A stretch of 64,000 bases of DNA from Methanosarcina barkeri str. Wiesmoor (GTDB lineage Archaea; Halobacteriota; Methanosarcinia; Methanosarcinales; Methanosarcinaceae): contig NZ_CP009526.1 of the NCBI RefSeq assembly GCF_000969985.1, positions 1,860,001 to 1,924,000 on the forward strand, given 5' to 3'. This document shows, piece after piece, positions 7,784 through 32,861 of this stretch (position 1 is the stretch's first letter; the number at the start of each line of letters is the position of its first letter). Both the position numbers and the translations under genes were made by a program. The notes beneath the pieces were generated by a model. The model made no database searches, had not been told where the DNA came from, and saw only the letters and a list, made by a program, of their open reading frames with translations.

Positions 7784-8893
7784 TTATAATCCAATTAGAT
7801 TTTGATCTATGAGAGCAAATTTCTTGATATTGATAGCGGCATTTATATCTCTATCATGTTTTGTTTTACAGTCTGGGCAAGTCCATTCTCTATCTTTTAA
7901 TGTCAAATCTGAATTATGATATCCACAAACATGACATACTTTAGAAGATGGTTCAAACTGTCCAATTCTCAGGATGGTTTTTCCGTACCATTCAGCTTTA
8001 TACTCTAGTTTTGTTACAAAACTGCTCCATGCGGAATCACTTATAGCCTGTGCCAAATGATGATTCTTGACCATTCCTTTAACATTCAGAGTTTCCAGAG
8101 CTATTGCTTGGTTTTCGCTTATGAGTTTAAAAGAGAGTTTGTTCTGGAAGTCGTTCCTCTGATTAGTTATTTTGTCATGGAGTACAGCAAGCCTATGTTT
8201 GGCTTTTACCCTGTTCTTAGAACCGTTCTGTTTCCTTGATACTCTTTTTTGAAGAACCTTTATCCTTTTCAAAGAGTTTTTCAGGTATTTAGGATTCTCA
8301 ATCTTTTCTCCTGTGGAAAGGATAGCAAAATCCTTAATCCCGACATCTATACCCACTGTAGTAGATTCTGAATACTTCTGTTTTGTAGGAAGTTCGTTTC
8401 CATCTTCAACAAGGATACTAATGTAGTAATGTCCTTTACATGTCCTTGAAACAGTAGCTGTTTTAAGCTCGCCCTCAAACTTCCTGTGAAAAACTGCTTT
8501 AATTGGTTCTATTTTAGGGAGCTTGATAGTGTTTTTTTCAAAGTCTACGGAGTAGTGTTGAGGTACAGGAAAAGATTGAATTGGGTTTTTCTTAGATTTG
8601 AACTTAGGAAAGCCGTTCTTCTCTCGGAAAAATCGAGTGAAGGCAGACTCAACCTGCTTAGTCATTCCCTGCAATGATTGAGAATTGACTTCTCCTAACC
8701 ATTCATTAGAAGCTTTCAAGACAGGAAGCTTTTTGTTTAAGTCAAATCTGGAAATTGATTTTCCTGTCTGTTCATAAGTTTTAATTTTCTGATCAAGTGC
8801 CCAATTGTAGACAAACCTACAGCTACCTATATGCTGATTTAATTGAACAGCTTGTGTAGCTGTAGGATAGAGCCTAAATTTGAACGCTTTCAT
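7784..8893 (-). CDS. tnpB: TnpB RNA-guided nuclease of IS605 element (copy 1)
   Basis: This ~369-residue protein begins KAFKFRLYPTATQAVQLNQH, the usual N-terminal HTH/OrfB start. The RuvC residues are all present: Asp in VGIDVGIKDFAIL, Glu in AIALETLNVKG and Asp in KTKHDRDINAAINI. The zinc finger shows two CxxC pairs (CHVCGYHN...CPDCK). The frame is intact. The two adjacent ATGs at 8896/8893 are better starts than the longer ORF to 8965. TnpB proteins are RNA-guided DNA nucleases that use the 3' omega RNA. It is a close relative of the copy at 31749. Confidence 0.93.
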   Translation of the reverse strand: MKAFKFRLYPTATQAVQLNQHIGSCRFVYNWALDQKIKTYEQTGKSISRFDLNKKLPVLKASNEWLGEVNSQSLQGMTKQVESAFTRFFREKNGFPKFKSKKNPIQSFPVPQHYSVDFEKNTIKLPKIEPIKAVFHRKFEGELKTATVSRTCKGHYYISILVEDGNELPTKQKYSESTTVGIDVGIKDFAILSTGEKIENPKYLKNSLKRIKVLQKRVSRKQNGSKNRVKAKHRLAVLHDKITNQRNDFQNKLSFKLISENQAIALETLNVKGMVKNHHLAQAISDSAWSSFVTKLEYKAEWYGKTILRIGQFEPSSKVCHVCGYHNSDLTLKDREWTCPDCKTKHDRDINAAINIKKFALIDQNLIGL

Positions 8894-8932
8894 CATACAA
8901 AGTATTATATTGTTTAACAATATATATATTTT

Positions 8933-9333
8933 TTGGTAAATAAGAAATGCGAGACAAGGAATCATAGCAAGTTTTTGTTAATGTATCATATTATTTTCGT
9001 TTGCAAATACCGAAAAGTCATACTTGAACCAATTAGCGAAGAACTCAAACAGATTATGATTGACATTTCAAAAAAGTCTAACTTTGAAATCCTTGAAATG
9101 GAAACTGACACCATATTCATTTATTGATTAAGAGTGAACCAAAAGTTAGTGTTTTATCTATTGTCAGAAAATTGAAACAAGAATCTACGAACGGGTTATG
9201 GAAAACACAAAAAGAATATCTGGAAAAGTATTATTGGGATGAAAATACGTTATGGAGTGAGGAATATTTTGCATCTACAATCGGAAATGTTAGTAAAGAG
9301 GCGGTAGAATATTATATACGAAATCAGGGGTGA
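8933..9333 (+). pseudogene. tnpA: IS200-type Y1 transposase, frameshifted
   Basis: The first frame (TTG start, ...FLLMYHIIFVCKYRKVIL...) ends at a TGA at 9125. The remainder (LIKSEPKVSVLSIVRKLKQ... SKEAVEYYIRNQG, with the Y1 tyrosine region) is in the next frame from 9112. The catalytic HUH motif codons CAT ATT CAT (9112-9120) survive but are out of frame with the N-terminus. Comparison with the usual ETDxDHIHLLI shows a small deletion (net -1, mod 3) around 9108-9111. The transposase is therefore inactive unless recoded, and it points away from tnpB as in IS605-type elements. Confidence 0.85.
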
Positions 9334-10700: not shown

Positions 10701-11650
10701 TTAAATGGAGTAAATAATCTGAACAATTCCAGACATGACTTTTTTGGTTTCTTTAGTAAATTTAGTCTTTTCATTTTTTGCCTTTTTAACCCATTCTAAA
10801 TGCTTTTCTTCATTATTAATTACTTCAACTTCTTTAAATCGAAGTTTTTCCAGAAATTTGATTTCATTTTCACGGCTATAAAATATATTCAATAATCTGT
10901 ATTTCAATAGTTTCTGTTCAATAGTTATTTTCTTTGGAAAATCACTAACTATAAGTTTGTTTAATTGCATCAAACAGTATTGATGCACTAACTTATCCCC
11001 GAAAATTTCCTTTAAGATTTCAGGATATCTCTTATCAAAATCCGTAACAATAAACACAGGCTCTGATGAATCGAGATTTTTCTGTAGAAATTTTTTGATG
11101 GTTTCTGGACTTTTATCTTCGAAAAGTTCATCCGTTATTGCTCTTTGAGTTTTTGCATCAAGTAAGGTTAAACGGTATTTCTGACATCTTCCTTCTTTTG
11201 GATGCTGTTTGTCATAATGCACTATACGTATATTTCCTGAGATTGGAACATTCTTCTTTTCTATTTTTTCGTTGAATGCTCTAAAAATAGTGCTTTTTGA
11301 TCTTGGAAGTATAAAGGCCATTATATCAGAAATTCCATCATAAGAAACGTTATAATATCTGAGAAACTGGAAAAAATCATTGAATGAATCAAAAAGTAAA
11401 GTTTTCAGATCTTCCAAACTGTGGTCTTCTTCGCATGTATTACCACAATTTGAGCATTTATATCTTCCAATCTTGATTGCTCCAAGACCTTGTTTGGTGT
11501 ATGAATTTTAGTCATTATGAGCCATACGAGTATTACAAATAGAGCAAGCTGGAGAAGTTTTCTACGAAAAACTCCTTTTACAGTATATTCGTAATCATTG
11601 TCGAAATTATCAAAAAGGTTTAAGAGAACAGGGAGTTCCAAAAAGTTATT
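10701..11650 (-). pseudogene. Decayed DDE/MULE-like transposase with zinc ribbon
   Basis: The main frame (10701-11417) includes HYDKQHPKEGRCQKYRLTLL, VFIVTDFDKRYPEILKEIFG and VHQYCLMQLNKLI, a MULE-like DDE core. Its N-terminal part, including a zinc ribbon KCSNCGNTCEEDHSLEDL, is encoded just upstream (~11405-11490). A frameshift separates it from the earlier part (FDNDYEYTVKGVFRRKLLQL) in another frame. The N-terminus opens with a (TTAATC)n microsatellite read as Asn-Leu repeats. The 3' end appears truncated. The IS family is not assigned with confidence. Confidence 0.7.
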
Positions 11651-11745
11651 AAGATTAAGATTAAGATTAAGATCAAGATTAAGATTAAGATTAAGATTAA
11701 AATTAAGATTAAGATTAAGATTAAGATTAAGATTAAGATTAAGAT
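11649..11745. repeat. Hexanucleotide array, attaag/cttaat, about 16 copies
   Basis: Near-perfect copies of the 6-mer ttaaga run for about 97 bp with two substitutions (gatcaa, aaaatt). On the minus strand they translate as alternating Asn and Leu at the start of the broken transposase frame. Confidence 0.9.
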
Positions 11746-11766
11746 TTATAGTTACCATCGTTGTGC

Positions 11767-11818
11767 TGTAACATCATTACATAATTACAGAATTGTAAAT
11801 TTATGTAGTGATGTTACA
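11767..11818. promoter_or_regulatory. 18-bp inverted repeat upstream of the flavin oxidoreductase
   Basis: The arms tgtaacatcattacataa (11767-11784) and ttatgtagtgatgttaca (11801-11818) pair at 17 of 18 positions; the one change would be a G-T wobble in RNA. The spacer is 16 bp. It lies between the broken transposase and the oxidoreductase start, about 70 bp upstream of the latter. It may be an operator, a terminator for the minus strand or an IS footprint. Confidence 0.5.
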
Positions 11819-12867: not shown

Positions 12868-13128
12868 TCACGCACTTACTATCGAAGTAATTAAACCTAA
12901 GATAGCTACAATTATACCTATACTAAGAAGTATCCGTTTAGCATTACTTTCTGGACTTAGTGGTCTAGATTCATAGTTGACTCCAAAATTTGAGTAGAAA
13001 AAAACCAGAAATATTAAAGCAAAACCAAATAAAAACATCTTGAATCCGATTGAAAAAGGACCGTTACTATCATAATTATTTATACTAAACTCCAAATTAG
13101 CAAATATTTTCGGATTCATTCCTATCAT
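12868..13128 (-). CDS. Small membrane protein, two helices (86 aa)
   Basis: Two hydrophobic segments are evident: MFLFGFALIFLVFFYSNFGV and ILLSIGIIVAILGLITSIVS. A polar loop joins them and the N-terminus is soluble (NPKIFANLEFSINNYDSNG). No family is recognised. The ATG at 13128 or the one three codons later could start it. It lies near the 31-residue membrane ORF at 13427 on the same strand, but ~300 bp apart. Confidence 0.65.
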   Translation of the reverse strand: MIGMNPKIFANLEFSINNYDSNGPFSIGFKMFLFGFALIFLVFFYSNFGVNYESRPLSPESNAKRILLSIGIIVAILGLITSIVSA

Positions 13129-13426
13129 ATTTTAAACTCTTTTACGTTCCTTATAAATTATACAATTTAGTTATATAGATATTTTTGCATATCCATCCCA
13201 AAAGGTCATTAAAACTTTGTAGATTTTAATGATTGGGATAAAACACTGAAAAACAATCTCCAAATCAAAGAAATAGCAACATTAGTATGTTGCTATTTCT
13301 TGTAAACCCTTTAAATGGAAACTATATTTTTGTAGAATAAGTAAAGAAAATCATTTTCCCTAAAGTATTACTTTTCAGAATGTTGAAAGAAGAGCAAAAA
13401 ATAAAAAATGGTGGACGCTTTGATAA

Positions 13427-13522
13427 TCATAATAAATTGGCAATTCCAATTAATATCATGATCGTTATTATTAACGCACTCATTATATCCCAGAAGTTTT
13501 CCCATAAATTAGTACGTGACAT
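13427..13522 (-). CDS. Tiny membrane protein (31 aa) with strong Shine-Dalgarno
   Basis: On the minus strand an ATG at 13522 starts MSRTNLWENFWDIMSALIIT and continues with a hydrophobic IMILIGIANLL before TGA. A gagggg Shine-Dalgarno sits 7 nt upstream. The shape, a short amphipathic Trp-rich head and one transmembrane helix, is that of a regulatory or subunit-like micro-protein. A TATA-like tttattaa lies further upstream. The opposite strand has an overlapping 57-codon ORF without comparable signals. No family is recognised. Confidence 0.6.
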   Translation of the reverse strand: MSRTNLWENFWDIMSALIITIMILIGIANLL

Positions 13523-13784
13523 ATTTCATCCCCTCAGTGTAAAAGGAGAAAATAGTTAATAAAGTTAGTTGTTCCCATCTGTTTTTTGAAAAGAGTTTTG
13601 AACCTGTATTTCCGCACAGATTAACTGCGTTAGAAGATAAGTTTATCAAGCGAGATCTGTATGTGGATTCTGTGGAAGAAAAAAACAGGGTTCTATGGAT
13701 TTCTATGGAATATCAGCATTCCAGGGGATAAAAAAATATAATATTTATTATTTCAACATAATATTAGTTTTGAGGTAGACTTGG

Positions 13785-14393
13785 TCACAAAAGTTTACCT
13801 TTAACAACCATCAGCTCTTCAAAAGAAACCTTTTTCCTCGCTACAACTTCTACTTCAAACCCCAGCTTCTCCATTTTCGCCTTAACAGCATCCAACCCTG
13901 TAATAGAGGAGATAAGCACAAGAATCTCTCCTCCCAGCTTGAGATAATCTCTTACTTCGTCTAGAAATCGATCTAGAGTGTCTCTTCCACTGATTCCCCC
14001 GTCAAAAGCGTAGTTAAGCCAACCAGGAACTTTTTCCTCCTCCGAGGTGGGTAGATACGGAGGATTAAAGAGGATAAGGTCAAAAAGATTTTCAGGATTT
14101 TTAGACTTTATCCCTTTAAAAAGATCAGTACGAATAACCTTCACGCCGTTCATTTTTGCACAGCGTGCGGCATGGGGGTTAATTTCCGTAGCGACAAGAT
14201 AAATTTCTTTCAGATTTGTAAGGAGTACAGAAGATACAAAACCAGACCCGGTTCCGATTTCAAGGATGCGCATACCTGGTTTTGCGTCTTTAAGGGCGGC
14301 ATCGGCAAGTAAAAAAGAATCCTCTGCAGGCTCATAGACCAGGTCCGTGTCCCCTAGCTTAATTCTAGTTTTTCTGTATTCGATTTCAACCAT
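13785..14393 (-). CDS. HemK/PrmC-related glutamine N5-methyltransferase
   Basis: This 202-residue class I methyltransferase has VYEPAEDSFLLADAAL at the N-terminus, the SAM motif LEIGTGSGFVSSVL, an acidic TEINPHAA after strand 2 and the catalytic FNPPYLPT, which marks N5-glutamine or amino-N methylation. Eukaryotic/archaeal relatives (Mtq2/HEMK2) methylate the GGQ glutamine of release factor aRF1/eRF1, usually with a Trm112 partner. It ends the rpl21e-rpoF-DUF655-ksgA block, a conserved archaeal gene order. It follows ksgA on the same strand. Confidence 0.9.
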   Translation of the reverse strand: MVEIEYRKTRIKLGDTDLVYEPAEDSFLLADAALKDAKPGMRILEIGTGSGFVSSVLLTNLKEIYLVATEINPHAARCAKMNGVKVIRTDLFKGIKSKNPENLFDLILFNPPYLPTSEEEKVPGWLNYAFDGGISGRDTLDRFLDEVRDYLKLGGEILVLISSITGLDAVKAKMEKLGFEVEVVARKKVSFEELMVVKGKLL

Positions 14394-31512: not shown

Positions 31513-31748
31513 TCTATCCGCTCCCTTTTATGATATGATAAAGGTATATATTTTATCCTTGCTTTAAAATTCATCTATTCTTATTCTAGAGTAATATACC
31601 TTAAAATTTAACTCTAATGCGTGAAATCCCCTTCTTCGCCAGCTTCCGTTGAGAACCGGCAGGTGGCAGGTGGGGGATGAAAGCCGTCAAGTTCAAAGAA
31701 TACTCTTTAACAAAAATTATTTATTTTTTTAAACTCTATTACTCTCGG

Positions 31749-32861
31749 ATGTTAAAAGCCTATAAATACCGAGTCTACCCCAACAAAGATCAGAAAAGAC
31801 TTATAAAAGTACATTTTGGAGCTTGTAGATTTGTCTATAATTGGGCTTTAGAACAGAAGATTAAAACTTATGAACAATACAATAAATCCATCTCACGGTT
31901 TGACTTACAACGAATTTTAGTTCATGAAGTAAAACCTGCTAATGAATGGTTGAAAGAAGCTAATTCTCAGTCTTTGTTGGCATGTTTAGTAAACGTGGAA
32001 TCAGCTTTTACCAGGTTTTTCAGGGAAAAGAAAGGATTTCCCAGGTTCAAATCTAAGAAAAATCCTGTTCAATCATATCAAATGCCACAACATTATACAG
32101 TAGATTTTGAAAAGAGTCTTGTAAAACTTCCTAAAATTGGAGAAGTTAAAGCAATTCTTCACAGGCGGTTTGAAGGCACTCTGAAAACAGCAACCATATC
32201 AAAGACCTGCACAGGAAAATACTATCTCAGTATTCTTGTTGAAGACGGAAAAGAACTCCCTGTAAAACAGGAATTCTCAGAATCTACTACAGTGGGAATA
32301 GATGTTGGTATCAAGGATTTTGCAGTTCTTTCTACAGGTGAAAAGGTTGAGAACCCTAAATACCTGAAAAATTCTCTTATCCGGTTGAAAGTTCTGCAAA
32401 AAAGAGTAAGTAGAAAAGTTAAAGGTTCTAAAAATCGAGAGAAAGCGAAACTGTTACTTTCAAAACTCCACGAAAAAATAAGCAATCAGAGAAATGATTT
32501 CCAGCATAAACTCTCTTCTAAACTTATTAGCGAGAACCAAGCTATTGCTCTGGAAACTCTGAATAAAGGGATGCAGAAGAACCACTGTCTTGCACAGGCT
32601 CTAATTGATTCTGCATGGAGTAGTTTTGTTACAAAGTTGGAGTATAAAGCAGATTGGTTCGGTAAAACTATCCTGAGAATAGGAAGATTTGAACCATCTT
32701 CTAAACTTTGTAGTGTTTGCGGATATTATAACTCTAATCTGACTCTTGATGCTAGAGAATGGGAATGTCCTGATTGTAAAACAAAACATGATAGAGACAT
32801 TAATGCTGCAATCAATATCAAAAAATTCTCACTTCAAGATCAAAATCTTATAGTTATTTGA
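31749..32861 (+). CDS. tnpB: TnpB RNA-guided nuclease (copy 2, solitary)
   Basis: This ~370-residue protein begins MLKAYKYRVYPNKDQKRLIK and is collinear with copy 1. Its RuvC residues are intact: VGIDVGIKDFAVL, AIALETLNKGM and KTKHDRDINAAINI, with the zinc pairs CSVCGYYN...CPDCK. Copy 2 is one residue shorter in the loop after the catalytic Glu (ETLN-KGM against ETLNVKGM). The ORF extends upstream to 31677, but the ATG at 31749 gives the normal N-terminus. A short direct repeat, tatagttatttgacac, is duplicated across its stop codon. Confidence 0.92.
   Translation: MLKAYKYRVYPNKDQKRLIKVHFGACRFVYNWALEQKIKTYEQYNKSISRFDLQRILVHEVKPANEWLKEANSQSLLACLVNVESAFTRFFREKKGFPRFKSKKNPVQSYQMPQHYTVDFEKSLVKLPKIGEVKAILHRRFEGTLKTATISKTCTGKYYLSILVEDGKELPVKQEFSESTTVGIDVGIKDFAVLSTGEKVENPKYLKNSLIRLKVLQKRVSRKVKGSKNREKAKLLLSKLHEKISNQRNDFQHKLSSKLISENQAIALETLNKGMQKNHCLAQALIDSAWSSFVTKLEYKADWFGKTILRIGRFEPSSKLCSVCGYYNSNLTLDAREWECPDCKTKHDRDINAAINIKKFSLQDQNLIVI

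Follow-up and report, generated by a model that had tools for sequence, protein, structure and literature searches.

A short open reading frame conserved in part of Methanosarcina is a candidate gene for a membrane microprotein

We report a 31-residue open reading frame (ORF) in Methanosarcina barkeri str. Wiesmoor, located in a 64,000-nucleotide stretch of DNA that was analyzed as a whole and is called the window here. Judged by comparison across genomes, this ORF is more than a product of chance, and there is a reasonable likelihood that it constitutes a genuine gene, autonomous and lineage specific, for a membrane microprotein of 30 to 31 residues. Five lines of evidence lead to this reading: (i) a conserved ATG, (ii) a conserved Shine-Dalgarno (SD) sequence, (iii) a stop codon that is nearly fixed in position, (iv) a hydrophobic helix, and (v) retention of the ORF after loss of either neighbor. 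The microprotein is probably of an ordinary kind, with nothing that marks it as extraordinary; standard gene callers would skip an ORF of 31 residues. The features of the locus, in window coordinates, are as follows.

13427 to 13522, minus strand: 31-residue ORF, translated as MSRTNLWENFWDIMSALIITIMILIGIANLL followed by a stop; predicted single membrane helix
13530 to 13535, minus strand: SD sequence GAGGGG, 7 nt ahead of the ATG
13522 to 13554, minus strand: predicted hairpin with the SD inside its 3′ arm, from folding against shuffled sequences
13523 to 13662, minus strand: conserved upstream region, 56 of 100 alignment columns invariant in seven genomes
13657 to 13700, minus strand: transposase relic, the start of an IS4/5-type gene, between the methyltransferase gene and the ORF; DNA match to loci L024 and L046
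13785 to 14393, minus strand: methyltransferase gene (PF05175, MTS), upstream of the ORF, which we take to be hemK-like and call hemK below

Results

A preliminary description made from the sequence of the window had noted the 31-residue ORF, without stating its strand, and had assigned to it a Trp-rich head and a single hydrophobic helix. The ORF is present on the minus strand; on the plus strand, the first frame of the same interval is interrupted by several stops. Trp7 and Trp11 are indeed placed in the head of the peptide, and the 19-residue hydropathy maximum of 2.56 falls on residues 13 to 31. Hydropathy of at least 2.56 was found for 2 of the 137 ATG-initiated ORFs of 27 to 35 residues in the window, a count that includes nested starts and the ORF itself, and the maximum ranged from 2.29 to 2.58 across the seven homologs described below. 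AlphaFold2, given the seven-row alignment, predicted a single helix over residues 3 to 30 (mean pLDDT, 89.5). Hydropathy and structure prediction thus agree on one predicted helix, which is long enough to span a membrane.

The SD sequence was also found as described, at 7 nt from the ATG with the spacer ATGAAAT, but calling it strong suits the other six homologs, which carry GGGGGTGA, better than it suits the window. In the window, the predicted duplex with the anti-SD sequence is of moderate stability (−8.2 kcal/mol, matched by 2.2% of window ATGs), with a longest exact match of 4 nt that 14% of window ATGs also possess. In the six other homologs, the duplex reaches −14.5 or −14.6 kcal/mol, a value attained by only 0.05% of window ATGs. 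The position of the SD is kept in all seven, and start codon and ribosome-binding site are conserved throughout (7/7).

The comparison with other Methanosarcina genomes that the preliminary description had proposed bore out the short ORF together with its start, SD, and hydrophobic helix. Homologs with E values of 1e-8 or better and 61 to 100% identity to the window protein were detected in seven of the 30 genus genomes, that of the window included. All are 30 or 31 residues long, use the same start, lack internal stops, and end at stops no more than one codon apart; no frameshift or indel interrupts the 29 codons aligned. Sixteen of 31 protein columns are invariant, including the head WExFWDIM. 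Each carrier genome holds a single copy. Carriers account for 6 of the 23 genus genomes that are at least 90% complete. In the other 23 of the 30 genomes the ORF was not found; 17 of these reach 90% completeness, and relatives such as G012 and G017 belong to this group.

A profile search across 111 genomes of the family returned weak hits (E = 0.001 to 0.09) in 18 genomes beyond the seven carriers. We inspected 13 of these loci, namely, those outside genomes G056, G045, G042, G028, and G005, and they do not look like homologs: none of the 13 holds a hydrophobic micro-ORF led by an SD. Nine (L055, L056, L058 to L062, L064, and L066) have in common the peptide EYFW(N/K)(I/M)MASLLHF within longer frames and therefore look like one gene region; L057 consists of the 18-residue MKRTNIWKRFASIMSAVS, and the others are partial matches within other frames. 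A second hit in G003 and a hit in G020 are matches of 12 to 13 residues within 56-codon frames and were taken as chance.

When mapped onto a hemK tree of 27 rows, in which 4 of the 24 inner branches have good support, the distribution of the ORF requires three changes, which may represent one gain and two losses. G012 has no copy of the ORF but retains, in inverted orientation, a 65-nt match (E = 3e-5) to the upstream region, a weak hint that the ORF was lost there. We also parsed the hemK loci of 27 of the 29 hemK-bearing genomes (all except G015 and G016) and found the conserved block in the downstream stretch covered, 1.5 kb or less, in 6 of the 27, all six belonging to the seven sequences from which the block model was built.

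To what extent the conservation reflects coding was examined at the nucleotide level. Within the ORF, 68 of 87 columns are invariant, compared with 56 of 100 upstream (Fisher's P = 0.0018) and 9 of 80 downstream (P = 4e-19), with conservation collapsing past the stop codon. A bias toward synonymous change, which the preliminary description had named as a further check, did not emerge at significance: the variable columns are distributed 6/5/8 over codon positions 1/2/3, and permutation of these 19 columns with BLOSUM scoring gave P = 0.15 for the ORF frame. Few substitutions are available, and 21% of the permuted alignments were also free of stops in this frame. The corresponding distribution in hemK is 34/28/121, and the share of variable columns at third positions is lower in the ORF (8 of 19) than in hemK (121 of 183; Fisher's P = 0.046). 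Among differing codons, nonsynonymous outnumber synonymous in all 21 genome pairs, and dS, estimated for the ORF from only 29 codons, is lower than that of hemK in all 21 pairs (0 to 0.31 versus 0.06 to 1.05). As a noncoding control, the 100 nt preceding a neighboring P-type cation ATPase gene are invariant at 73 of 100 columns in five genomes, for which the ORF yields 69 of 87. The conserved third positions suggest that the RNA or DNA sequence may itself also be under constraint.

These data bear on the alternative of a conserved noncoding element between hemK and the ATPase gene, be it regulatory DNA or a small RNA, in which the ORF is incidental. The near-equal conservation of all three codon positions is what such an element would display, and the conserved upstream DNA and the nonsignificant codon test are consistent with it as well. 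However, covariation in the consensus fold is low (double changes in 2 of 54 pairs), the single-sequence z-score is only −1.5, and a search of Rfam gave no match near a family threshold. The drop in conservation past the stop codon and the fixed placement of the SD likewise count against it, and we consider the noncoding alternative rather unlikely.

The region upstream of the ORF (13523 to 13662), as judged from its conservation, is probably a promoter together with a 5′ leader. Of 500 dinucleotide shuffles of the window hairpin, 0.8% fold equally well, and at most 1.8% do so in five of the seven genomes; the hairpin is weak in G003 (11.4%) and not above chance in G029 (31%). Predicted accessibility of the SD, at 0.21 to 0.43 in the seven genomes, lies at the low end of the range for 25 window genes (0.25 to 0.98) and not clearly outside it. 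In the folding models, the hairpin may mask the SD in part in five of the seven genomes.

In type I toxins, the SD is masked by mRNA structure. A peptide of this type would be a small hydrophobic helix that damages the membrane once its SD is released, and size, hydrophobicity, and the predicted hairpin in five of seven genomes are consistent with such an identity; the constraint on synonymous sites would, in addition, fit an overlapping antisense RNA. Each carrier, however, has one copy, searches of viral contigs and plasmid collections returned no relatives, and the hairpin falters in G003 and G029. We regard a toxin-like peptide as improbable, and quite improbable, too, the fuller proposal of a conditionally translated peptide in the archaeal membrane, with the SD hairpin as its lock and an overlapping antisense RNA as the cause of its nucleotide-level constraint; this would be an archaeal equivalent of type I toxins or of membrane peptides released under stress.

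The preliminary description would have counted conservation of the opposite-strand frame alone against the ORF. Conservation is not so limited, but that frame, a 59-residue ORF (window 13380 to 13559, plus strand), is open in all seven genomes, over 41 to 78 codons from stop to stop, and its substitution score is the best among the six frames (P = 0.07). That it is a real gene or the relic of one is nonetheless very unlikely, given that no start is common to the seven (an ATG lies inside the overlap in six, and a TTG at its beginning in four) and that both ends shift between genomes, with the open stretch beginning between 1 and 32 codons ahead of the overlap.

We then considered the genomic neighborhood. 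hemK was matched in 29 of the 30 genomes of the genus, and the order hemK followed by the P-type cation ATPase gene occurs with and without the ORF. The distance between hemK and the ORF is 1.4 Mb in G029; the ATPase ortholog is 0.76 Mb from the ORF in G003 and was not found in G000 or in G027 (a 560-contig assembly), where the best match is a 69% paralog. The ORF has therefore been kept without either neighbor, and hemK, on this comparative evidence, is an ancestral neighbor that is not required for retention. A search of 14 upstream stretches for a copy of the block ahead of the ATPase gene found none.

The preliminary description had noted that micro-proteins of this shape often modulate membrane enzymes; the ATPase is the one membrane enzyme nearby in relatives, and the ORF is retained without it. 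Sarcolipin regulates SERCA, and by analogy the peptide might regulate the neighboring ATPase, whose gene follows on the same strand at a distance of 0.7 to 4.8 kb in G004, G025, G013, and G029 (0.7 kb in the last). Yet the ATPase gene also follows hemK in G014, G005, G028, G007, G017, and G012, none of which has the ORF, and the ortholog is distant or was not found in the three carriers named above; we dropped this reading, to which we give very little credence, because linkage and co-occurrence did not hold.

Downstream of the ORF lie an 86-residue hydrophobic ORF in the window, a 355-residue ORF in G003, a 342-residue ORF in G013, and, in G004, G025, and G027, decayed copies of the 86-residue ORF followed by an ORF on the opposite strand. 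No same-strand downstream gene is common to all seven carriers, which argues for a stand-alone product. A leader peptide controlling a downstream gene, although in keeping with a short, SD-led ORF with a hairpin near its start and with the 86-residue ORF next in the window, is accordingly a very doubtful reading, since the downstream gene varies or is decayed among carriers and no terminator-like site was found in 13200 to 13800.

Several further observations were made on the region. The 86-residue ORF of the window (12868 to 13128, minus strand) is intact and shares 54% identity with an ORF of G001 that is likewise intact; its counterparts in G004, G025, and G027 carry stops or frame breaks. 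In G003, the interval from hemK to the ORF contains a tandem array with a unit of ~17 bp (TATAATTTCAAGAATAG; L069 and L098), and G001 has a second hemK-like copy, broken by stops (G001:C1:4427157-4427757; L096). For the transposase relic, the hit to PF13340 (DUF4096) comes from the L046 reading and not from that of the window. Elsewhere in the window, positions 11598 to 11771 form a simple repeat whose open frames on both strands read alternating Leu-Asn or Leu-Arg, and two similar ORFs (7784 to 8965, minus strand; 31677 to 32861, plus strand) presumably resemble TnpB-type transposon proteins.

Searches of Pfam and PHROGs gave no match for the 31-residue peptide, and the best scores in NCBIfam, PADLOC, and PDB (E = 0.099, 0.061, and 0.5, respectively) were not credible. 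Among the reports listed by literature searches on Methanosarcina small ORFs and archaeal microproteins, none names the ORF; supplements or other sources may include it.

Discussion

If the ORF is a gene for a membrane microprotein, it would be transcribed from its own promoter inside the conserved upstream region, and the strong SD would direct its translation; partial masking of this SD by the local hairpin may make output conditional. The peptide would insert as one helix, with the head residues Trp7, Phe10, and Trp11 at the membrane interface, and might act through contact between this helix and a helix of some host membrane protein encoded away from the ORF.

Annotation and mass spectrometry readily overlook small membrane proteins. 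With seven homologs, a strong SD, and a distribution clearly bounded to one branch of Methanosarcina, the microprotein offers a precise test case and, if translated, would add an orphan membrane-regulator candidate for methanogens.

Subunits and regulators of the sarcolipin, CydX, and KdpF type have ~30 residues and one membrane helix. The microprotein is alike in size and in its single predicted helix; none of these families surfaced in the Pfam, NCBIfam, and PDB searches, and no partner gene adjoins the ORF in every carrier.

Bacterial type I toxins (PMC8309996) resemble the microprotein in being small, hydrophobic, and possibly SD masked. Closer at hand, MtrR and MtrI of Methanosarcina mazei are small proteins from the same genus whose binding target is a membrane enzyme, the Mtr complex; MtrR, at 49 residues, lacks a membrane domain, and MtrI was modeled as a 52-residue peptide (PMC13370731, PMC12774963). 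Ribo-seq of M. mazei revealed 314 unannotated small ORFs, half of them of at most 30 residues (PMC11456600). The M. mazei protein sORF_05 differs from the microprotein in being encoded within a methylamine operon, next to a trimethylamine permease; the two are likened by description and not by sequence (PMC11456600). Within those terms, sORF_05 comes from the same genus, is likewise unannotated and small, is likewise a predicted hydrophobic α-helix, and is found mainly in the membrane fraction, where the microprotein is predicted to reside; its overexpression slows growth of M. mazei when nitrogen is sufficient (PMC11456600).
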